The position numbers and the translations under genes were made by a program. A stretch of DNA of 64,000 bases, from positions 1,302,001 through 1,366,000 of the forward strand of contig NZ_CP114904.1 in NCBI RefSeq assembly GCF_027497215.1, read 5' to 3'. Source of the DNA: Micromonospora sp. WMMD812 (GTDB lineage Bacteria > Actinomycetota > Actinomycetes > Mycobacteriales > Micromonosporaceae). Below, piece after piece: positions 36,171 through 49,675 of this stretch. The notes beneath the pieces were generated by a model, which saw only the letters and a program-made list of their open reading frames with translations, did no database searches and had not been told where the DNA came from. How positions within the stretch are numbered: the first letter of the stretch is position 1; each line of letters starts with the position of its first letter.

Positions 36171-37655
36171 CTATGCGTCCGCTGTGGGATTCGGCAGCCG
36201 GACGGTGAACACGGTCCGGCCGGGGCGGCTCGCCACGGCGACGGAGCCGTTGTGCGCCTCCACCACCGCCGCCACGATGGCCAGGCCCAGGCCGGTGCTG
36301 CCGTGCGCCCGCGACCGGGAGCTGTCGCCGCGGGCGAACCGCTCGAAGACCTCCGGTTGCAGCTCCGGCGGTACGCCGGGGCCGTCGTCGGCGACGCTGA
36401 GCACGGCGGCGTCCGGCTCGGCGCGCAGGGTGGTGGTGACCGTGCTGCCGGGTGCGGTGTGCACCCGCGCGTTGGCCAGCAGGTTCGCCACCACCTGGTG
36501 CAGCCGGGCGGCGTCGCCGGGCACCCGGATCACCACGTCCGGCAGGTCGAGCTGCCAGCGGTGCTCGGGGCCGGCCACGTGCGCGTCGCTGACCGCGTCC
36601 ACGACCAGCGCGGAAAGGTCTACCGGTTCGGCCGCGAGCGGCCGACCGGAGTCGAGCCGCGCCAGCAGCAGCAGGTCGTCGACGAGGCTGGTCATCCGGG
36701 TGCTCTCCGACTCCACCCGGCGCAGGGCGTGTGCGACATCGGGCGGCACCCGGTCCCGGCCGCGGCGGGCGACCTCGGCGTACCCGCGGATCGCCGCGAG
36801 GGGGGTGCGCAGCTCGTGGCTCGCGTCGGCGACGAACTGGCGGACCCGGGTCTCGCTGGCCTGCCGGGCGGCGAGGGCGGCGGCGACGTGCCCAAGCATC
36901 CGGTTGAGCGCGGCGCCGACCTGCCCCACCTCCGTACGCGGGTCGGTGTCGGGCGCCGGGACGCGCTCGGAGAGCGCCACCTCGCCCCGGTCCAGGGTGA
37001 GTTCGCTGACCCGACCGGCGGTGGCGGCGACCCGGCGCAGCGGGCGCAGCGTGGCTCGTACGATCAACGCGCCCAGGCTGCCGGCGACCAGCAGCCCGGC
37101 GGCGGCGACGGCGGCCTGCGCGGCGATCATCCGCTGGACCGTCTCCTGCACGTCGGCCAGCGGTAGCGCGAGGGCCTGGACCCGCCCGCTGGGCGACTGC
37201 CGGGCCACGGCGCGGTAGTCGCCCCGCGCGCCGAGGTCCACCGTGCGGGGTACGGCGTCGACGGGCAGCCCGGCCAGCGCCGCCACCTCGTCGGCCGCGA
37301 GCGGCTCGCCGCCGGGCTGGTTTCCGGTCTGGCTCCGCGCGGCGGTCACCCGGCCGTCGGCGACCGTGGCGACCACCGAGCCCGGGGGCAGGCCGGGTGG
37401 GATCTCCGGCTGGGGCCGCCACGGCCGGTCGCCGCGGCCCATGGGGCCGGCGACCAGCTGGGTGTCGACCCGCTCGATCAGGAAGTGCCGCAGCGCCACC
37501 GTGGTGAGGCCGCCGACGGCGACGCTGACCAGGGCCAGCAGGGCGACCAGGGTGACCACCAGTCGGGTACGCAGCGACCAGCCGGCCAGGCGGCGGCGCA
37601 GGGCGCCCGGCCGGCGGGTCCCTTCGCCGGTGTCACTCCGCCGGCTTGAGGACAT
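36171..37655 (-). CDS. sensor histidine kinase with HAMP domain
   Basis: The 494-residue kinase has two membrane helices (RLVVTLVALLALVSVAVGGL near residue 35 and AAVAAAGLLVAGSLGALIV near 185) around an extracytoplasmic sensor of about 130 residues. HAMP follows, then the HisKA box DASHELRTPLAAIRGY (His near 277), the N box NLLANARVHT near 395, DDGPGVP and GLGLAIVAAVVEAHNGS. It should phosphorylate the response regulator whose gene overlaps its start by 23 bases. The overlap and the shared operon with two envelope glycosyltransferase genes suggest envelope or cell-surface sensing, by inference. Confidence 0.93.
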   Translation of the reverse strand: MSSSRRSDTGEGTRRPGALRRRLAGWSLRTRLVVTLVALLALVSVAVGGLTTVALRHFLIERVDTQLVAGPMGRGDRPWRPQPEIPPGLPPGSVVATVADGRVTAARSQTGNQPGGEPLAADEVAALAGLPVDAVPRTVDLGARGDYRAVARQSPSGRVQALALPLADVQETVQRMIAAQAAVAAAGLLVAGSLGALIVRATLRPLRRVAATAGRVSELTLDRGEVALSERVPAPDTDPRTEVGQVGAALNRMLGHVAAALAARQASETRVRQFVADASHELRTPLAAIRGYAEVARRGRDRVPPDVAHALRRVESESTRMTSLVDDLLLLARLDSGRPLAAEPVDLSALVVDAVSDAHVAGPEHRWQLDLPDVVIRVPGDAARLHQVVANLLANARVHTAPGSTVTTTLRAEPDAAVLSVADDGPGVPPELQPEVFERFARGDSSRSRAHGSTGLGLAIVAAVVEAHNGSVAVASRPGRTVFTVRLPNPTADA

Positions 37656-38892: not shown

Positions 38893-39930
38893 ATGCGGAC
38901 GCTGGACGGGCGGTACCGGCTCGAACAGCGCATCGGCATCGGGGGGATGTCCGAGGTGTGGCGCGCCCACGACGTGGTGCTCGACCGGCCGGTCGCGGTG
39001 AAGCTGATCTCCGCCGGTCAGGACGGGCTGGACAGCTCGGTCGAGCGGATCCGGACCGAGGCCCGCGCGGCGGCGCGGCTGGTGCACCCGAACGTGGCCA
39101 GCGTGCACGACTTCGGCACCTGCGCGACGCTGCCCGACCGCCGGATGCCGTACATCGTCATGGAGCTGGCGGAGGGCGAGACGCTCGCCGCGCACCTGCG
39201 GGCCGGGCCGCTGGACTGGCGGATCGCGGTGCGGGTGTGCGCGGAGGTGTCCGCCGCGCTGGCCGCGGCGCACGCGCACGGCATCGTCCACCGGGACGTG
39301 AAGCCGGCGAACGTCATCCTCACCCCGGCCGGGGTGAAGGTGCTCGACTTCGGGATCGCCCTTCGGGCCGGCGCACCGGACCCGGCGCCGGACGGGATGG
39401 TGGTGGGCACTCCGGCGTACCTCGCCCCGGAGCAGCTGGATCGGGCGCCCGCGACCCCGGCCGCCGACATGTACGCCCTCGGCGTGCTGCTGTACTACTG
39501 CCTGACCGGGCGGCTGCCGTACCCGGCGGAGACCGCCACCCAGCTGTTCGGCGCGCGCCGGCGCCAACGGCCAGAGCCGCTGCCCGGGATCGACGGGTTG
39601 CCGCCCGAGGTGGTCGAGCTGTGCCGCCGCTGCCTGGCCGACGAGCCGGCCGACCGGCCGTCCAGCCTGGTCGCCGCGCTATTGCTGGCCGAGGCGGTGG
39701 ACGCCCGGGTGTACGTGCCGATGCACCTGCCGACGGCGCCCCGACCGCGGCGCGCGAGGGTGCGCCCGTGGACCGAGCGCGCCGCGACCGAGGTCACCGA
39801 GGCCGCGCCGGCGCTCGACCGGCCCGCAGCGGCGCTCGACCTCCCCGAGCCGGCGCTCGAACCGCCCGTGCCGGCGCTCGAGCCGAACGCGCCGGTGGGC
39901 GACCGGCGTGGCTCGGCCGGCGACGCCTGA
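38893..39930 (+). CDS. soluble serine/threonine protein kinase (PknA/PknB-like)
   Basis: The 345-residue kinase has all core motifs: glycine loop GIGGMSEV (residues 15-22), VAVK lysine K37, catalytic HRDVKPAN (133-140), DFG (152-154) and the APE of the P+1 loop (178-180). The kinase domain ends near 275. The tail lacks a membrane helix and sensor. It is instead a basic linker followed by imperfect proline/acidic repeats (ALDRP, ALDLPEP, ALEPPVP, ALEPNAP), so the kinase is cytoplasmic and may be recruited through the tail. The ATG has GAGGAGCGAGGAG upstream. A SigB-type promoter suggests stress induction. The OsmC gene follows on the same strand with its own promoter. Confidence 0.93.
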   Translation: MRTLDGRYRLEQRIGIGGMSEVWRAHDVVLDRPVAVKLISAGQDGLDSSVERIRTEARAAARLVHPNVASVHDFGTCATLPDRRMPYIVMELAEGETLAAHLRAGPLDWRIAVRVCAEVSAALAAAHAHGIVHRDVKPANVILTPAGVKVLDFGIALRAGAPDPAPDGMVVGTPAYLAPEQLDRAPATPAADMYALGVLLYYCLTGRLPYPAETATQLFGARRRQRPEPLPGIDGLPPEVVELCRRCLADEPADRPSSLVAALLLAEAVDARVYVPMHLPTAPRPRRARVRPWTERAATEVTEAAPALDRPAAALDLPEPALEPPVPALEPNAPVGDRRGSAGDA

Positions 39931-42495: not shown

Positions 42496-43032
42496 TCACC
42501 GCACGGGCGCGCCGTCCCGGCCGGTCGGTGGTTCCGCCGGCCCCTCGACGCCACCGGCGGCCACCCGGGTCGCGGGCACCCCGGCCGCCGCGGTCGGCGT
42601 GTCGACCGGTACCGGCTCGACGGTCACCTCGCTGAGGATCTCGTCCACCCGGGCCTCCCGCCGCCGACGGGCCTCCAGCGCCGCCTCGAAGTCACGGCGC
42701 GCCTGCACGGCCTCGGCGTACGCCCGCTCGCGCAACTGGCGGGCCTCCTCACGGGCCGCGTCCAGCTCGACGCGCGCCAGGGCCAGGATCGCGCCCGCCT
42801 CCCGGTCGACCTCGCCGGCACTGCGCCCCACCACCGCCGCATCGTCCAGGTCGAGCCGGCGCAGCAGGCCGCAGAGCCCGCTCGCCTCCTGCCGGATCCG
42901 GTCGCCCTCCCGACCGGGCCCCGCGGCGCTCTCCGCCCATGCCGCGAGCCGGGTCAACCGGAAACCCAGCTCATCCAGGCAGGAGTCCACCTGCCGCTGG
43001 TCGTAACCGATCTCCACGACGGAGAACCTCAT
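42496..43032 (-). CDS. DivIVA-like coiled-coil protein
   Basis: The 178-residue protein starts with MRFSVVEIGYDQRQVDSCLD, close to the DivIVA N-terminal signature (GYDxxxVDxFLD). It continues into a helical region ending in a long charged coiled coil (ARVELDAAREEARQLRERAY; ARRDFEAALEARRRREARVD, about residues 90-140) and a disordered tail. DivIVA-type proteins bind curved membrane or act as scaffolds. The ATG with this N terminus was preferred to a longer start. It is the last of the minus-strand genes of the signalling island and could be a scaffold for it, by position only. Confidence 0.7.
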   Translation of the reverse strand: MRFSVVEIGYDQRQVDSCLDELGFRLTRLAAWAESAAGPGREGDRIRQEASGLCGLLRRLDLDDAAVVGRSAGEVDREAGAILALARVELDAAREEARQLRERAYAEAVQARRDFEAALEARRRREARVDEILSEVTVEPVPVDTPTAAAGVPATRVAAGGVEGPAEPPTGRDGAPVR

Positions 43033-43187
43033 GCTGTCGCCCCCCAGGCAGCCGGAAACATGTCCCCACCTGGATCCTCGACCGTGCCGCACACTCGCGA
43101 GGCGGTTCGGCCGAATTGTTCAGCATCCGGGCGGCCGGCGGGTCCGCGCGGCGCGCGGAGCGGGACGTCCGGGGTGGTCGGGGACGG

Positions 43188-43634
43188 TCAGGGGCGCTTG
43201 GGCAGCACGACCACCCGGCCGAAGAACTCGTCGATCCGGTGCACCACGTCGTTGAAGTCGTCCAAATCGATCGGCTTGGTGACGTACGCGTTGGCCTGGA
43301 GGGTGTAGCTGCCGACGATGTCGGTGTCCGCGTTCGAGGTGGTCAGCACGACGATCGGGATGGTGCGCAGGTCCTCGTCCTGCTTGACCTCGCCGAGCAC
43401 CTGCCGCCCATCCATCCGGGGCATGTTCAGGTCGAGCAGGATGACGTCCGGCCGTACGGCCTCCGTGTGCCGGCCCTCGCGGCGGAGGAACTCCATCGCC
43501 TCCTGCCCGTCGCCGACCACGTCGATGACCTTGTCGACGTCCGAGTCGCCGAGCGCCTCCTCGATCATGAGCACGTCGCCCGGGTCGTCGTCCACCACAA
43601 GGATGCGCACCGGGTTCGGGCTGTCTGCGCCCAT
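43188..43634 (-). CDS. single-domain response regulator (receiver only)
   Basis: The 148-residue protein is a stand-alone receiver. It has the acidic cluster VVDDDPGD near residue 16, the phosphoacceptor in ILLDLNMPRMDG near 69, the threonine/serine in VVLTTSNAD near 98 and the lysine in YVTKPIDLDDF near 121. The extended alpha1 (GDVLMIEEAL) resembles Rcp1/CheY-like partners of phytochrome-type or hybrid kinases. It has no output domain, so it should act by protein contact. No cognate histidine kinase is adjacent; the STAS and SpoIIE genes upstream suggest a link to the partner-switching module. Confidence 0.9.
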   Translation of the reverse strand: MGADSPNPVRILVVDDDPGDVLMIEEALGDSDVDKVIDVVGDGQEAMEFLRREGRHTEAVRPDVILLDLNMPRMDGRQVLGEVKQDEDLRTIPIVVLTTSNADTDIVGSYTLQANAYVTKPIDLDDFNDVVHRIDEFFGRVVVLPKRP

Positions 43635-43702
43635 GATCTACCTGCCTCGGGTCGGCGGGAACGGGACCTCGCGGTCACGTGCTGGCGGGGAAATCTAGTC
43701 CA

Positions 43703-44050
43703 TCACGGGAGGATCTGCGAGGCCGGGTCGGCGGTGTCCGGTTCGTACCGGAGCACCTCGGCGAGGCCGGTGAGGCGCAGCACCCGCTCCACCCGACCGC
43801 TGGCCCCGGTGACCCGCAGCCAACCGCCGTCCGCCGCCGCGTGGTTGTCGCCCCGGACGAAGGCCGCGATGCCGGTGGAGTCGCAGAACGTCAGCTCGGT
43901 GAGATCCACGAGCAGGCGCCGCTCGCCCGCCTCGGTCAGCCGGTCGATCACGGCGTTCAGCTCCGGCGCGGTGCTCATGTCCAGCTCACCGACGAGGCGC
44001 AGACACGTGCCACCGCCGTCGCGGTCGGCGTACGTGACGGTGAACGGCAC
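43703..44050 (-). CDS. STAS-domain anti-sigma factor antagonist
   Basis: The 115-residue protein is a single STAS domain of the SpoIIAA/RsbV type: TCLRLVGELDMSTAPEL near residue 17, and LTFCDSTGIAAFVRG near 57, with the serine that anti-sigma kinases phosphorylate. The C-terminal RVLRLTGLAEVL helix is standard. The unphosphorylated form would bind an anti-sigma kinase and free the sigma factor; a SpoIIE-type phosphatase reactivates it. Such a phosphatase is encoded two genes upstream on the same strand. The GTG start has GGGGGAG upstream. Confidence 0.9.
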   Translation of the reverse strand: MPFTVTYADRDGGGTCLRLVGELDMSTAPELNAVIDRLTEAGERRLLVDLTELTFCDSTGIAAFVRGDNHAAADGGWLRVTGASGRVERVLRLTGLAEVLRYEPDTADPASQILP

Positions 44051-44135
44051 CGTGCTCCCCCTCGCTCCCACGCAGGTGGGACGTTTGCAGTGGGGCAAGT
44101 ATAAGCAGGGGCGGGCCACCGGCCCACCCGCCGGC

Positions 44136-45185
44136 TCAGCCGTTCGACGGGGCGCCCGCCGGGGTGACGAGCAGCCGGCTCCGGTCCAGGTAGCCGACCG
44201 CGCGCGGGAAGTCACGCAGCACCCGACCGAAGTGCTCCAGCGTCAGCCCGAGCGCCGCGGCCGGCACGCCACGGCTGGTCAGAATGGCCGCCAGCCACTC
44301 GACGAACTCGGTGAAGAGCGAACCGTCGTCCACGTAGAGCGCGGCCGCCAGGAAGTCCACGACGTAGCCCAGGTCGCTCACCGTCGAGTCGACCTGCGCC
44401 GGGGTGTACGACTGGGTCGCCGGCGCCCGCTCCCGGAGGTCGGCCAGCGCGCCGTCGATCAGCTCGGCCCGCCGCCGGACCAGGCCGGCGTACTCGTCGT
44501 CGGCCAGGTGGGACAGCTCGGCCGGCGGGACGCGGCGCAGCGCCCGCTCGTCGGCGACCAGGTCGGCGGCGCCGGGTGCGTCCGGCGACCACGCCACACC
44601 GAGGCGGCGGGCCCAGCGGCCGTCGACTCCGAAGCCACGCCCGCCCACCACGACGGGGACGTCGGACCGGCGGCACGCCTCGATCATGCGGTGCGCGTGC
44701 GGCAGCCGCATCGGCAGCGCGCAGGCCAGCGCGACCGCGTGCGCGTCGTGCCGGTGCAGGTACGACACCAGGTGCGCGGCCGGGACGCTGGCCCCGAGGA
44801 ACGTGACCTGCCAGCCGCGCAGCCGCAGCACCTCGGCGACCAACCGCGGCGGAAGCGCGTGCCACTCCCCGTCCATGCAGGCCACCACGATCCGGCCCCG
44901 GGTCGGCCGCGGGCCGGCCTGACCGGCGATCGCGGCCACCACGCGCTCGCTGATGTGCGTGGCGGCGTGCTCCTGGGCGACGCTCCACTCGTTGCGCGCC
45001 CAGCGCTCCCCCACCTCGGCCTGCGCGGGCGCCACCAGGTCCAGCAGCACCCGTTCGGCCGGCACCCCCCGGGACAGCAGGCCGAGGGCGACCTCGATGG
45101 CCGCGTACTCGTCGGCTTCGGTGAGGCAGTCCAGGTAGTCCGCGTAGGCGCCCCCGGGGCTGGCCTGCCTGATCGCCGTGGTCAA
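44136..45185 (-). CDS. CarH-like cobalamin-binding sensor protein without a DNA-binding domain
   Basis: The 349-residue protein has a helical cap domain (about residues 15-90) and a B12-binding Rossmann domain (about 97-215). DGEWHALPPRLVAEVLRLRG puts a histidine (H109) at the cobalt-ligand position. The cap has W62, nine residues, E72-H73, the Wx9EH pattern of CarH/LitR B12 photoreceptors; the residue after W62 is alanine, where CarH has the histidine that binds cobalt after light. There is no MerR-type DNA-binding domain. The C-terminal 130 residues (SLFTEFVEWLAAILTSRGVP) are a helical domain I cannot name. The start is TTG, overlapping the SpoIIE stop codon in TTGA. It probably feeds a B12, light or redox signal to that phosphatase. 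Confidence 0.85.
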   Translation of the reverse strand: MTTAIRQASPGGAYADYLDCLTEADEYAAIEVALGLLSRGVPAERVLLDLVAPAQAEVGERWARNEWSVAQEHAATHISERVVAAIAGQAGPRPTRGRIVVACMDGEWHALPPRLVAEVLRLRGWQVTFLGASVPAAHLVSYLHRHDAHAVALACALPMRLPHAHRMIEACRRSDVPVVVGGRGFGVDGRWARRLGVAWSPDAPGAADLVADERALRRVPPAELSHLADDEYAGLVRRRAELIDGALADLRERAPATQSYTPAQVDSTVSDLGYVVDFLAAALYVDDGSLFTEFVEWLAAILTSRGVPAAALGLTLEHFGRVLRDFPRAVGYLDRSRLLVTPAGAPSNG

Positions 45186-46969
45186 CCGCGGTCCTCCCTC
45201 GCCCCGTCAGGCCCGCCCGCGGGCACCGCGTGCAGGTGCCGGGACGCCCGCCCGGTCGGCCCCGACGCCCGCAACGCCAGGACCGCGATGTCGTCGTGGT
45301 CGCCGTGCCCCAGCCAGTCGCAGGTGACCTGCTCGATCCGCTCGGCGAGCGCCGGCGCCGGCATCCGGTGGCAGCCGGTCAGCACGTCGACCAGCCGCTC
45401 CGGGCCGAACTGCTCGTCGCCCCACCGGCCCCCGCGCGCCTCCGTCACCCCGTCGCTGTAGAGCACGCAGGTCTCGCCGGGCTCCAGCCGGACGGTGACC
45501 TCGCCGACCCGCGGATCCGGGACCACACCGATCAGCATCCCGCGCAGCGGCACCGTCTCCACCTCGCCGGTGGCCCGCAGCACCAGCGGCGGCAGGTGAC
45601 CGCCGCCGGCCATGGTGAGGGTCAACCCGCCGTCGCGGTGCGGGCGCACGACGCCGAGCACCAGGGTGGCGAACCGACCCTGGCCGTGCGCCTGGGTGGT
45701 TTCCAGCAACGCGTCGTTGAGCAGCCCGAGCAGCCGGGCCGGCTGCGACTCGACCCGGTGCAGCGCCTGCAGGCACTGGCGTAGCTGGCCGGTGAAGACG
45801 GCCGCCTCCACTCCCTTGCCGGAGACGTCGCCGAGGAAGAAGACCGAGCCGCCGTCGGGAAGGCGGTGCGAGCCGTAGAAGTCGCCGCCGATCCGCAGAC
45901 CCGCCTGGGCCGACCGGTACGCCGTGCCCCACTGGACGCCGACGGCTTCGGCCGGCTCCACCGGCAGCAGGCTGGCCTGCAGGGTGTCGGCGACCTCGGC
46001 CTGGTCCCGGTAGAGCATCGCGGTGGTCATCGCGGCGCCGGCCCGGGCCGCGAACGCGTGCAGCAGATCGACGTCGCTCTCGTCGTACCAGCCGGTGCCG
46101 CGCCGCGCGACCAGAAGCACCCCGGCCGGGGCGTCCGACCCGGGCAGGGGCACCGCCCGGACGTCGGTGTCCCCCGTCGCGAGGCCCGGCAGCCACCCGG
46201 CCTCGGCCGCCTGTTCGACCAGCCAGTCGACGGCGTGCGGCGCAACGCCGGCCAGGCCGTCGGCGATGGCCACGGGCAGCTCGGCGGCGGCCAGCACGCC
46301 GCTGTCCACGGCCGGGCCCTCGTCGTCCACCCGGGACGCCCGCCACCAGTGAGCCCGTCCCGAACGGGGAGCGAGCACCAGCACGGCCACCTCGGCCAGC
46401 GTGGGCACGGCCAACCGGACCACCGCCGCGGCGGCCCGGGTCGGGTGCAACGGGTTGCCGAGCTTCTCCCCGACCACCGCCAGGAACGCGGAGCGGGCAC
46501 GCTCGGCGAGCAGGGCGTCGGCGCGGCTCACGCTCTCGGTGACGTCCTCCACGTACCAGCAGCAGCGGCCGCCGGAGAGGGGCACCCGCCGCGCGGTCAA
46601 CCGGCGGGAGCGATGGTCGAACGCACCCGTGGCCGGTTCGCCCGACAGGCCGGCGACGCCGGCCGCGGCCAACACCTCCCCGACGGTCACCTCGGGCAGG
46701 AGGCGTTCGGCGACCGGGCTGACATGGCGTACCACCCCGTCCGCGTCGCAGACGACCAGGCCCTCCCGGAAGTGCTCGACGACCTCGGACCAGTCCGGGG
46801 TGGCCGGCGGCCGGGCGGGGGTGAGCGCTGGCGGGGCGGGCGCCGGGCGGGCCGGCGGGGCCGGGGACCACGCCGGAGCCCGGTCGGCACTCGGCGTGGA
46901 GACCCGTCCGTCGCCCGGGTCCCAGTCCCTGACGTCGGCGGCAGTCACCAGCTGAGCCCCACTCCTCAT
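45182..46969 (-). CDS. PAS-GAF-PP2C (SpoIIE/RsbU-type) phosphatase
   Basis: The 595-residue protein has a proline/alanine-rich N terminus, a PAS domain (about residues 65-160, FREGLVVCDADGVVRHVSP), a GAF domain (about 170-330) and a C-terminal PP2C phosphatase domain. Metal-binding blocks are GGDFYGSHRLPDGG near 373, FFLGDVSGKGVEAA near 391, YSDGVTEARGG near 510 and HDDIAVLAL near 565. RsbU/SpoIIE enzymes dephosphorylate STAS antagonists and so switch on stress sigma factors. AGGAGTGGGG lies inside the first codons, so a GTG 21 bases downstream (MTAADVRD) is a possible true start. The B12 sensor gene is coupled to its 3' end. Two STAS genes are divergent. Confidence 0.9.
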   Translation of the reverse strand: MRSGAQLVTAADVRDWDPGDGRVSTPSADRAPAWSPAPPARPAPAPPALTPARPPATPDWSEVVEHFREGLVVCDADGVVRHVSPVAERLLPEVTVGEVLAAAGVAGLSGEPATGAFDHRSRRLTARRVPLSGGRCCWYVEDVTESVSRADALLAERARSAFLAVVGEKLGNPLHPTRAAAAVVRLAVPTLAEVAVLVLAPRSGRAHWWRASRVDDEGPAVDSGVLAAAELPVAIADGLAGVAPHAVDWLVEQAAEAGWLPGLATGDTDVRAVPLPGSDAPAGVLLVARRGTGWYDESDVDLLHAFAARAGAAMTTAMLYRDQAEVADTLQASLLPVEPAEAVGVQWGTAYRSAQAGLRIGGDFYGSHRLPDGGSVFFLGDVSGKGVEAAVFTGQLRQCLQALHRVESQPARLLGLLNDALLETTQAHGQGRFATLVLGVVRPHRDGGLTLTMAGGGHLPPLVLRATGEVETVPLRGMLIGVVPDPRVGEVTVRLEPGETCVLYSDGVTEARGGRWGDEQFGPERLVDVLTGCHRMPAPALAERIEQVTCDWLGHGDHDDIAVLALRASGPTGRASRHLHAVPAGGPDGAREDRG

Positions 46970-47149
46970 CGTCGCGCGACGCGCCGGAACCGGCGTCTAT
47001 GGTCAAATCCCTCCGACCACCCTACGCGGCCTCGCCCGAACCGCCACCCCACGCTCAGGTGCGGCCCGCCGGCACCGGGCGGCGGGGCCTGTGGATTGTT
47101 ACGATCCCCCGGACCCCGGCCGGCCGGCATTCTGCGGAAAGGCGTGATC

Positions 47150-47536
47150 GTGGTACCCCACGGGCGGAAACCCGAGACGACACCGCTGAGTCTGGCCGTC
47201 GACCGGTCGGATCCGGGTGCCCCGCTGATCCAGGTGGGCGGCGACCTGGCGTACACCACGGCGGCGCCGCTGCGGGAGGAGATCGACCGCGTGCTCGCCG
47301 AGCCGCCGCCGGTCATCGTCCTGGACTTCGCCGGCCTGCTCTTCATCGACAGCACCGGCCTCGCGGTGATCGTGCACGCATGGCGCGAGGGTCAGCACCG
47401 TGGCACCGCGATCGAACTGCGGGCCGTCCCCCGCTTCCTGGGGACGATCCTCGACCTCACCGGAGTCACGGGCCTGCTCGCCCGGTCGGGTCCGCCGGCC
47501 CGCCCGCGGATGGACCGACCGACGGCCAGCGTGTGA
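47150..47536 (+). CDS. STAS-domain anti-sigma factor antagonist
   Basis: The 128-residue protein is a STAS domain with a short N-terminal extension (PHGRKPETTPLSLAV). IQVGGDLAYTTAAPLREEID near residue 25 and LLFIDSTGLAVIVHAW near 63 are the core motifs, with an intact phosphorylatable serine. The C-terminal tail (RSGPPARPRMDRPTASV) is disordered. GTG has GGAAAGG seven bases upstream; a GTG six bases earlier is too close to that site. It is divergent from the SpoIIE gene and followed by a second STAS gene 61 bases later. Confidence 0.88.
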   Translation: MVPHGRKPETTPLSLAVDRSDPGAPLIQVGGDLAYTTAAPLREEIDRVLAEPPPVIVLDFAGLLFIDSTGLAVIVHAWREGQHRGTAIELRAVPRFLGTILDLTGVTGLLARSGPPARPRMDRPTASV

Positions 47537-47597
47537 CCACCGGACGGATCGGTCCCGCCCAGGGCTGTGCGGGGCGTGCGGCAGGGAGCAGGGCGGC

Positions 47598-47942
47598 ATG
47601 CCCGCGCAGCTGTTGACCATCGAGGTGAGCCGGCTCGACGCCGGTCGCGCCCGGCTACGACTGATCGGCGACCTCGATTTCGACACCGCGCCGGAGTTCG
47701 CCGCCGCCGCCGCCGAACTGCGGCGGGAGGGCTACCGGGAGCTGGAGATCGACCTGACCGGGGTCGGCCTCTGCGACTCCTCCGGGCTCAGCGCGTTCGT
47801 CGTGGCGCACCGTGCCGGCGCCGGGCCGATCCGGCTGATCGGCGTCAGCCCGCTGCTCCAGCAACTGCTGGACCGCACCGGCCTGGCGGAGCTGCTGACC
47901 GTGGCCCGGTCGTCCGACGACGACCTGCGCGCCATCGGGTGA
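47598..47942 (+). CDS. STAS-domain anti-sigma factor antagonist
   Basis: The 114-residue protein is another RsbV/SpoIIAA-type STAS domain: ARLRLIGDLDFDTAPEFAAA near residue 17 and GVGLCDSSGLSAFVVAHR near 57, with the conserved serine. The end RTGLAELLTVARSSDD is typical. It is the third antagonist within 4 kb, which suggests that several inputs feed anti-sigma kinases encoded elsewhere. The ATG has AGGGCGGC upstream. It is probably cotranscribed with the preceding STAS gene. Confidence 0.9.
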   Translation: MPAQLLTIEVSRLDAGRARLRLIGDLDFDTAPEFAAAAAELRREGYRELEIDLTGVGLCDSSGLSAFVVAHRAGAGPIRLIGVSPLLQQLLDRTGLAELLTVARSSDDDLRAIG

Positions 47943-48694: not shown

Positions 48695-49675
48695 ATGCGC
48701 AAGCAGATGGAAGGCGACAACCAACGCCGCCGGACGCTCGCCCGGCAGGCCCGCGAGCAGGGCCGGCAGCCGAGCGAGACGGGTGCCAGCCTGAGCGCCT
48801 CCAAGCAGCTGACCCACCTCGACCGGGGCAAGCGCGCGGGGCCGCCGCCGGCCGGCAGCCGACACAAGCCGGACACCGCGCGCGGCGGGCCGTCCCCGCC
48901 GCCGGCCGGCACCCCGTCGAATCCCCGGCCGCAGCTCGCGCCGGGGGTGAACGCGGGAGGCACGGCCACGATGGGTTACCACGACCTGGTCGAGAACGTC
49001 CGCCGCCGGGCCGGCGTCGACTTCCGTACGGCCAAGGTGGGCGCCGAGGCGACCGTGCTGGTCCTGGCCTTCGCGCTGGGCCAGGCGGAACGCCAACGGC
49101 TGCTCTCGGCGGTGCCGTCGTCCCTGCACGACGTGGTGCCGGTCGACGGCATCGAGCAGCGCCGGGACCTGCCCGGTTTCCTCGCCGAGGTGGGCCGGAT
49201 CAGCGGCAACACGCCGGAGGAGGCCCGGTACCAGGCCGAGGCCACGCTCGCCGCGCTCGCCGACGCCGACGGTGACCTGGTCGAGTCGCTGCACGTCCCG
49301 GAGAGCCTGCGGGAGTTGCTGGCACCGCCGGCGGTCGGCGGCGGCGTGGTCGGCGCGGCCAGCGCGACGCCTCCGCTGAGCGACGCGGAACTCTCGGCGG
49401 CGCTGGCGGACATGCCGTACTGGTCCGGCGACGGCACCGGGCTGTACCGGGTGATCGCGCTGCCCCCGGACAACCTGGACCGGGTGCTGGACCGGATCGA
49501 GCAACTGCGGCAGGAGACGGGACGGGCGCCGACGATCGGCCGCCCCGGCCCGACCGCAGCCGTGCTCACCGTCCGCTCCCGGCAGGCCGGTGCGGTGACC
49601 GCCCTCGACCTGGATCTCGCCCGCAGCATCGACGACGCGATCGACGAGGCGGGCGCCGGCATGGCCACCGGTTGA
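48695..49675 (+). CDS. DUF2267 protein fused to a degenerate pterin dehydratase-like domain
   Basis: The 326-residue product has three parts. Residues 1-92 are basic and proline-rich (MRKQMEGDNQRRRTLARQAR). DUF2267 spans about 93-200 (MGYHDLVENVRRRAG; VLVLAFALGQAERQRLLSAV). Residues 228-326 resemble 4a-hydroxytetrahydrobiopterin dehydratase (LSDAELSAALADMPYWSGDG; DLDLARSIDDAI), but the paired histidines of the active site are absent (GRAPTIGR). DUF2267 proteins are common in actinobacterial stress clusters and have no known activity. GGAAGGG precedes the ATG, and a SigB-type promoter lies upstream. A second DUF2267 gene in the window has the same promoter type. Confidence 0.75.
   Translation: MRKQMEGDNQRRRTLARQAREQGRQPSETGASLSASKQLTHLDRGKRAGPPPAGSRHKPDTARGGPSPPPAGTPSNPRPQLAPGVNAGGTATMGYHDLVENVRRRAGVDFRTAKVGAEATVLVLAFALGQAERQRLLSAVPSSLHDVVPVDGIEQRRDLPGFLAEVGRISGNTPEEARYQAEATLAALADADGDLVESLHVPESLRELLAPPAVGGGVVGAASATPPLSDAELSAALADMPYWSGDGTGLYRVIALPPDNLDRVLDRIEQLRQETGRAPTIGRPGPTAAVLTVRSRQAGAVTALDLDLARSIDDAIDEAGAGMATG

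Follow-up and report, generated by a model that had tools for sequence, protein, structure and literature searches.

We analysed a 64 kb window of the 7.13 Mb single-contig genome of Micromonospora sp. WMMD812 (contig NZ_CP114904.1, positions 1,302,001 to 1,366,000), in which seven genes form an island around a vitamin B12-binding protein and a SpoIIE-type serine phosphatase encoded by overlapping genes. The island is probably a light-responsive partner-switching module, in which the B12 protein, a predicted photocobilin, would serve through protein contact as an accessory light sensor for a PAS-GAF-SpoIIE phosphatase with STAS anti-sigma-factor antagonists as its substrates. Four results of the analysis form the basis of this proposal: the family membership of the B12 protein, its ligand residues, the conserved coupling of the two genes, and the one-way dependence of the sensor gene on the phosphatase gene.

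The B12 protein is a predicted photocobilin

The closest solved structures to the B12 protein are 8J2W and 8J2X (phmmer E 1e-102, residues 17–338), the dark and light crystal structures of SasPcob from Saccharothrix syringae, and 8J2Y (E 2.6e-49), the structure of AbDPcob (Zhang et al. 2024, PMC10979010). The window protein and SasPcob share 180 of 316 aligned residues (57%). We compared the seven residues named as cobalamin or biliverdin contacts in SasPcob (W61, E71, H72, H108, H137, D270 and W296), and all of them match in the alignment, as W62, E72, H73, H109, H138, D271 and W297. The predicted model (mean predicted local distance difference test score 88.5, from a 14-sequence alignment) also has 8j2w as its top match in the Protein Data Bank, with template modelling scores of 0.87/0.92 over 332 columns, near full length. 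It comprises a four-helix cap, with a cap helix that starts near residue 10, a B12 Rossmann domain, and a C-terminal bilin-type globin (about residues 230–340), in line with the five-helix globin-like bilin domain that packs against the B12 domain in photocobilins. By sequence and model, the B12 protein is thus a stand-alone photocobilin with a second, biliverdin, chromophore site. The initial annotation had read it as a CarH-like cobalamin protein without a DNA-binding domain; the absence of such a domain stands in the Pfam search, but the protein belongs to the photocobilins rather than being an unknown relative of CarH, and the globin, revealed by the full-length match to 8j2w, had been overlooked together with the biliverdin site.

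The photosensory motifs of the B12 domain, Trp...Glu-His and E/DxH, are both present (W62, E72, H73 and H109), and the alignment bears out the initial description of a W62-x9-E72-H73 pattern, a histidine (H109) at the cobalt position and an alanine at the lit-state position. Cysteines are found at positions 20, 103, 155 and 171 only. The globin part therefore has none, which agrees with photocobilins having no covalent cysteine link to the bilin, as described by Zhang et al. (PMC10979010). Conservation of these features was followed in 66 genus-type loci (L007–L072; at most 6 kb per side), obtained by a protein search of genome contigs, of which 65 come from Micromonospora/Verrucosispora and one (L063) from Asanoa. 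Counting the window gene, without merging identical sequences and after removal of three fragments, the WEHHHDW signature occurs in 62 of the 63 genus-type loci and in 106 of another 124 sequences paired with SpoIIE. Of the 63, 62 retain Asp271 and Trp297; L066, the exception, is truncated.

The alanine, Ala63, follows W62 directly and occupies the place where CarH has His132, its cobalt ligand in the lit state. This had been taken for an anomaly. However, none of 200 aligned sequences has histidine there (Ala 147, Gln 38, other 15; own gene included, not de-duplicated), and lit SasPcob is described in the main text of Zhang et al. as water- or hydroxide-ligated, without a bis-His form (PMC10979010). 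Judged by the alignment, alanine at this position is a trait of the whole family.

A CarH/LitR-type repressor, or an AerR-like antirepressor, acting at DNA could be suspected from the homology of the B12 domain to CarH. However, the Pfam search found no helix-turn-helix family in the photocobilin, its score against the NCBIfam CarH model was 65 bits versus a cut-off of 400, and the His132 equivalent is absent. We regard action at DNA as extremely improbable, and rejected a CarH-type repressor because no DNA-binding domain was found and the score lies far below the NCBIfam cut-off.

Two loci depart from the usual form of the gene. In L168, a photocobilin relative beside SpoIIE has arginine in place of the cobalt histidine, and the positions of both tryptophans, the second histidine and the aspartate are changed; it is apparently a chromophore-blind copy. 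In L200, one SpoIIE gene is followed by two tandem photocobilin genes and then by a STAS gene.

The SpoIIE gene accompanies the photocobilin gene across genera

The SpoIIE stop and the photocobilin start share TTGA, so the coupling described initially is confirmed in the sequence; the same 4-nt overlap is seen in 50 of 65 genus-type loci. Conserved co-occurrence of the pair had been suggested as a check, and it is what we found. Loci of other genera were drawn from 150 sampled genomes of the family and 394 of the class (27 of 146 places were not fetched). SpoIIE was scored as a neighbour when a tblastn match lay upstream on the same strand with its stop at most 700 nt from the photocobilin match, a criterion that divergent SpoIIEs may escape. 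After removal of three fragments and of identical sequences, 171 distinct photocobilin genes remained. SpoIIE lies directly upstream of all 72 distinct genus genes, a total that contains the window gene, three second copies and Asanoa L063, and of 86 of the 98 distinct other-genus genes with enough upstream sequence. Pairing in other genera follows identity to the window photocobilin, with 75 of 77 genes paired at 40% identity and above, against 11 of 21 at lower identity.

Since the genome has 14 SpoIIE domains, adjacency to the photocobilin by chance would be rare. Chance falls far short of explaining how well the arrangement is conserved. We compared 67 neighbouring SpoIIEs from the widely fetched loci (64 from other genera and the three second copies from the genus) with the 14 of the genome. 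The best match was the paired SpoIIE for 48, the SpoIIE of L218 for 8 and that of L216 for 11, indicating that mostly one phosphatase lineage accompanies the photocobilin. SpoIIE–photocobilin fusions (Rosetta-stone evidence) were not found among 203 loci. The natural trans partner of the photocobilin is here likely, from this gene coupling, to be the SpoIIE phosphatase.

The SpoIIE of L218 accompanies a second photocobilin (photocobilin-2) in relatives. In three of them (L150–L152), the second photocobilin lies between two SpoIIE genes and has Ser, Val or Gly at the bilin aspartate. At C1:5852000-5862000 of our own genome (L230), no photocobilin-2 was found, and two SpoIIE frames abut.

The phosphatase and its candidate substrates

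The label of PAS-GAF-SpoIIE phosphatase given initially is secure for the SpoIIE domain, whereas PAS and GAF score below the Pfam cut-offs. In the predicted model we read a PAS-like fold, a long helix, a GAF-like fold and the phosphatase; a fold search with this model returned only phosphatases among the first 50 matches listed, and so gave the PAS and GAF folds no independent confirmation. An alignment of 17 photocobilin-paired SpoIIEs, that of the window among them, shows no variation at D363, D381, D506, D559 and D560. Thus, the predicted metal-binding aspartates of this SpoIIE/RsbU-type phosphatase, which we take to be among these five, are intact.

Three STAS antagonists and a stand-alone receiver had been placed around the pair, and this holds: all three STAS domains score above the Pfam cut-off, and the receiver is found in its frame. 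The DS[ST]G motif is present in 57 of 58 STAS1, 43 of 43 STAS2 and 57 of 57 STAS3 genus orthologues checked (at least 55% identity; DSSG in STAS3). STAS1 of the window has the phosphorylation-type motif DSTG, and appears to be the likeliest substrate of SpoIIE.

STAS1 may be separately controlled. The box TATACTTGCNNCACTGCAA ahead of it is exact in 41 of the 66 genus-type loci, and a genome search that allowed two mismatches found it only once, with 0 expected in the window. It holds a TTGC-N6-GCAA palindrome over TATACT, and is retained in four loci where the photocobilin is lost or damaged. The box may be STAS1's own promoter or operator.

Proposed mechanism

According to our proposal, the photocobilin would bind base-off adenosylcobalamin, with His109 below the cobalt, and biliverdin via Asp271 and Trp297 plus His138 of the other monomer, and in the dark it would form a head-to-tail dimer. 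The cobalt–carbon bond would be broken by green light directly, or by red light via biliverdin; the adenosyl group would then exit the Trp62/Glu72-His73 pocket, and the dimer would dissociate. The PAS-GAF-SpoIIE phosphatase, encoded in the same operon, would receive this change by protein contact, and its dephosphorylation of STAS1, and perhaps of STAS2 and STAS3, would be altered. An anti-sigma kinase encoded elsewhere would then take up or release its sigma factor.

From the biochemistry of SasPcob and AbDPcob we carry over the photochemistry and the principle that contact can control a partner enzyme. Zhang et al. report a dimer that binds adenosylcobalamin in the dark and is photolysed by green light or, through biliverdin, by red light, a monomeric lit SasPcob, and control of a diguanylate cyclase even by photocobilin supplied in trans (PMC10979010). 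The contact with SpoIIE, its direction, its substrate and the sigma factor output are what we infer for this island.

Evidence for and against the proposal

Several observations weigh against this proposal, and some of them favour other explanations. The first is the clean loss of the photocobilin from some genomes, part of a pattern of gain and loss that otherwise speaks for the proposal. In 121 genus genomes we scored the photocobilin at E ≤ 1e-100 (89 genomes) and searched the paired SpoIIE with its PAS-GAF part (95 genomes, one 41% paralogue match set aside). Both genes were found in 88 genomes, the photocobilin alone in 1, SpoIIE alone in 7 and neither in 25, counts that are not corrected for phylogeny. 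The sole photocobilin-only genome has its gene at a contig end, on a contig of 3490 bases; the contig of L049, which begins inside SpoIIE, is equally long. The seven SpoIIE-only cases comprise three clean absences, three damaged genes and one contig end. Where the photocobilin is cleanly absent (L233, L234 and L236), SpoIIE, STAS1, the receiver and the coiled-coil gene are all retained. The damaged loci have an internal gap in the photocobilin (L232), a broken frame (L235) or an interruption of about 2 kb ahead of STAS1 (L231), and the remaining case has a contig edge inside SpoIIE (L237). To judge by length, the contigs of L231 and L235 appear identical with those of L071 and L070. Despite loss or damage of the photocobilin, all of L231–L236 keep SpoIIE and the receiver, and all except L235 keep STAS1. 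Given the clean losses, the phosphatase cannot depend on this input alone, and the sensor is dispensable. In this genus, then, the photocobilin is not clearly found without the phosphatase, and the phosphatase persists without the photocobilin; this one-way dependence fits an accessory sensor of a SpoIIE–STAS pathway that has other inputs.

The second concerns the neighbours. In the genus, 64 of the 66 loci have the receiver at no less than 80% identity (it is missing in Asanoa L063 and in truncated L066); it is thus kept as strictly as SpoIIE, which therefore does not stand out there by its conservation. STAS1, the supposed substrate, is absent in some loci (for example L046, L047, L051, L052 and L067), where the receiver comes directly after the photocobilin. 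SpoIIE was not found by tblastn upstream of 12 of the 98 other-genus photocobilin genes; in the 10 of these 12 run against Pfam, B12 domains were the only domains, with no fused output. It could thus be argued that the photocobilin acts on another target, a STAS antagonist, the Rcp1-type receiver or a distant enzyme, and that adjacency to SpoIIE reflects shared transcription only. The persistence of SpoIIE without a photocobilin points the same way, as does the presence of a STAS gene next downstream of the photocobilin in 57 of the 65 genus-type loci with room. Outside the genus, however, SpoIIE stays with the photocobilin, while the receiver (at 60% identity or more) occurs in 1 of 80 wide loci and a STAS gene is next downstream in 18 of 78. 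We therefore consider another target unlikely.

The third is the kinase. No anti-sigma-type kinase was found in the island or in any of the 66 genus-type loci. The genome has 46 HATPase_c_2 matches, 30 of them above the cut-off, and by their weak scores many resemble ordinary sensor kinases. With our own hidden Markov model (HMM), five of whose nine seeds were drawn from the wide loci themselves, an anti-sigma-type kinase lies within 4.5 kb in 13 of 80 wide loci, and L204 is found additionally by Pfam. In L158, L204, L169 and L184, genes for STAS, kinase, SpoIIE and photocobilin follow in that order on one strand (kinase called by Pfam in L158 and L204, by our HMM in L169 and L184); these loci would join three components of a switch, its antagonist, its kinase and its phosphatase, to the light sensor, a point in favour of the proposal.

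The presence of several STAS proteins near the photocobilin, together with the reported homology of photoglobin and RsbR globins (PMC10151467), could instead suggest a stressosome-like assembly, in which the bilin globin would gather with STAS proteins and the photocobilin would be an RsbR-type sensor. No STAS domain was found in the photocobilin by the Pfam search, however, and no RsbW/RsbT-family ATPase kinase in the genus-type loci, so that we hold such an assembly to be very unlikely. A search restricted to the island revealed neither an RsbR-type globin–STAS fusion nor an RsbT-type kinase.

The last is the supply of bilin. A PF01126 heme oxygenase is encoded in our own genome (C1:72916-73515), but PF01126 was found in only 6 of the 14 genus photocobilin genomes of the family sample, in 3 of them weakly. 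Across the 150 family genomes, photocobilin and PF01126 occur together in 50, photocobilin alone in 16, the heme oxygenase alone in 48 and neither in 36 (Fisher p 0.02). The association is weak overall and poor within the genus, and we dropped PF01126, the only family that the search covered, as a co-occurring source of bilin.

The photocobilin might sense the adenosylcobalamin level or redox state instead of light and still act on SpoIIE, its bilin pocket being vestigial or empty in most species; that PF01126 was not found in 8 of these 14 genomes agrees with this. A photocobilin-2 with a substituted bilin aspartate adjoins SpoIIE in three relatives, and AbDPcob takes up little biliverdin (PMC10979010), both in keeping with a B12-only sensor. 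On the other hand, the near-invariance of Asp271 and Trp297 in the genus is expected if bilin is bound, the residues of the adenosyl pocket equal those of light-sensing relatives, and PF01126 was the sole heme oxygenase family searched. A B12-only sensor thus seems to us a minor possibility, and the light-responsive module is the explanation we favour.

A wider statement can be made, which we regard as evenly poised between right and wrong. The stand-alone photocobilins of actinomycetes would be dedicated, dispensable light subunits of one ancient SpoIIE lineage, through which green or red light, via B12 or biliverdin, would set STAS phosphorylation; about three in four of the genus genomes sampled have them, and they would have been lost repeatedly with the phosphatase pathway kept.

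Layout of the island

All seven genes lie where the initial annotation had placed them (Table 1). On the minus strand the order is SpoIIE, photocobilin, STAS1, receiver and coiled-coil-like gene; STAS2 and STAS3 are on the opposite strand. We placed the GTG start of STAS1 at 44050, within a reading frame listed as 43703–44080.

Table 1. Genes and putative control element of the island, in window coordinates
Feature	Position	Strand	Evidence or remark
Photocobilin (predicted)	44136-45185	-	TTG start overlaps SpoIIE stop; Pfam B12-binding_2 and B12-binding
PAS-GAF-SpoIIE (PP2C-type) serine phosphatase, partner gene	45182-46969	-	Pfam SpoIIE E 1.5e-42
STAS1 anti-sigma-factor antagonist, next gene downstream of photocobilin	43703-44050	-	Pfam STAS_2 E 7e-17; TIGR00377 above cut-off; SpoIIAA matches
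Putative promoter/operator box TATACTTGCNNCACTGCAA, 19 bp	44085-44103	-	34 bp ahead of STAS1 start
Stand-alone receiver, Rcp1 / phytochrome response regulator type	43188-43634	-	phmmer matches to 5te9, 1i3c, 1k68
Coiled-coil-like protein	42496-43092	-	'DivIVA-like' from N-terminal motif alone
STAS2 antagonist, divergent from SpoIIE	47147-47536	+	Pfam STAS_2 E 5e-13
STAS3 antagonist, divergent from SpoIIE	47601-47942	+	Pfam STAS_2 E 6e-14

The best phmmer match of the receiver is 5te9, a response regulator receiver protein (E 4e-40), with RCP1 (1i3c, E 2.4e-35) and RcpA (1k68, E 4e-35) close to it. Its likeness to phytochrome response regulators is suggestive in view of the light locus; Rcp1-type receivers also serve other kinases. 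The coiled-coil-like protein had been called a DivIVA-like scaffold, a label without support from Pfam above the cut-off or from any NCBIfam match; it goes back to an N-terminal GYDxxxVD-type motif, which we take to be the reason for the name. The gene is present in most, not all, genus-type loci.

Beyond the island, 48698–49675 (+) encodes a DUF2267 domain followed by a pterin-4a-carbinolamine-dehydratase-like segment slightly below its cut-off. A Ser/Thr protein kinase domain (38893–39930, +) and a HAMP-HisKA sensor kinase (36171–37655, -) lie nearby, with no link to the island shown.

Relation to known systems

The phosphatase found beside 75 of the 77 distinct other-genus relatives at 40% identity or more offers a concrete target for the stand-alone photocobilins, photoreceptors whose function 'is less clear' according to Zhang et al. 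(PMC10979010). Natural strains that have lost the photocobilin and keep the rest of the pathway are ready comparison strains. If true, our proposal would tie vitamin B12 and bilin photochemistry to STAS and sigma factor control in soil actinomycetes, and would yield a trans-acting light-controlled serine phosphatase.

The island had initially been thought to match no characterised system. However, SasPcob has dark and light structures, and STAS, SpoIIE and PP2C proteins were already named as its potential partners by network analysis (Zhang et al. 2024, PMC10979010). Among the full-text matches listed, no other paper treats photocobilins with SpoIIE in its title or abstract. Relative to the main text of PMC10979010, what is new here is the identification of the partner gene, together with counts of the coupling in this and other genera and a description of photocobilin losses, which make the assignment of the partner firmer.

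SasPcob shares with the window protein the full-length architecture, 57% identity and the seven contact residues, and like it has neither a lit-state histidine nor a DNA-binding domain; we saw no structural difference, the window protein being known from its sequence and model. AbDPcob has the same sensor fold, and light controls an enzyme there too, but its output, a diguanylate cyclase, is fused, its position 270 is histidine and it binds biliverdin weakly, whereas the window protein retains the aspartate and has its proposed output encoded by a separate gene. CarH and LitR have the B12-binding core, the Wx9EH pattern and the cobalt-binding histidine in common with the photocobilin, which lacks their MerR DNA-binding domain and lit-state histidine and has an additional globin domain. 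The SpoIIE/RsbU partner switch of Bacillus subtilis resembles the island in having a PP2C phosphatase whose N-terminal part is regulatory, and STAS antagonists with DS[ST]G; in contrast, the island includes neither a kinase nor a sigma factor (no search was aimed at the latter), and light would be sensed by a protein separate from the phosphatase.

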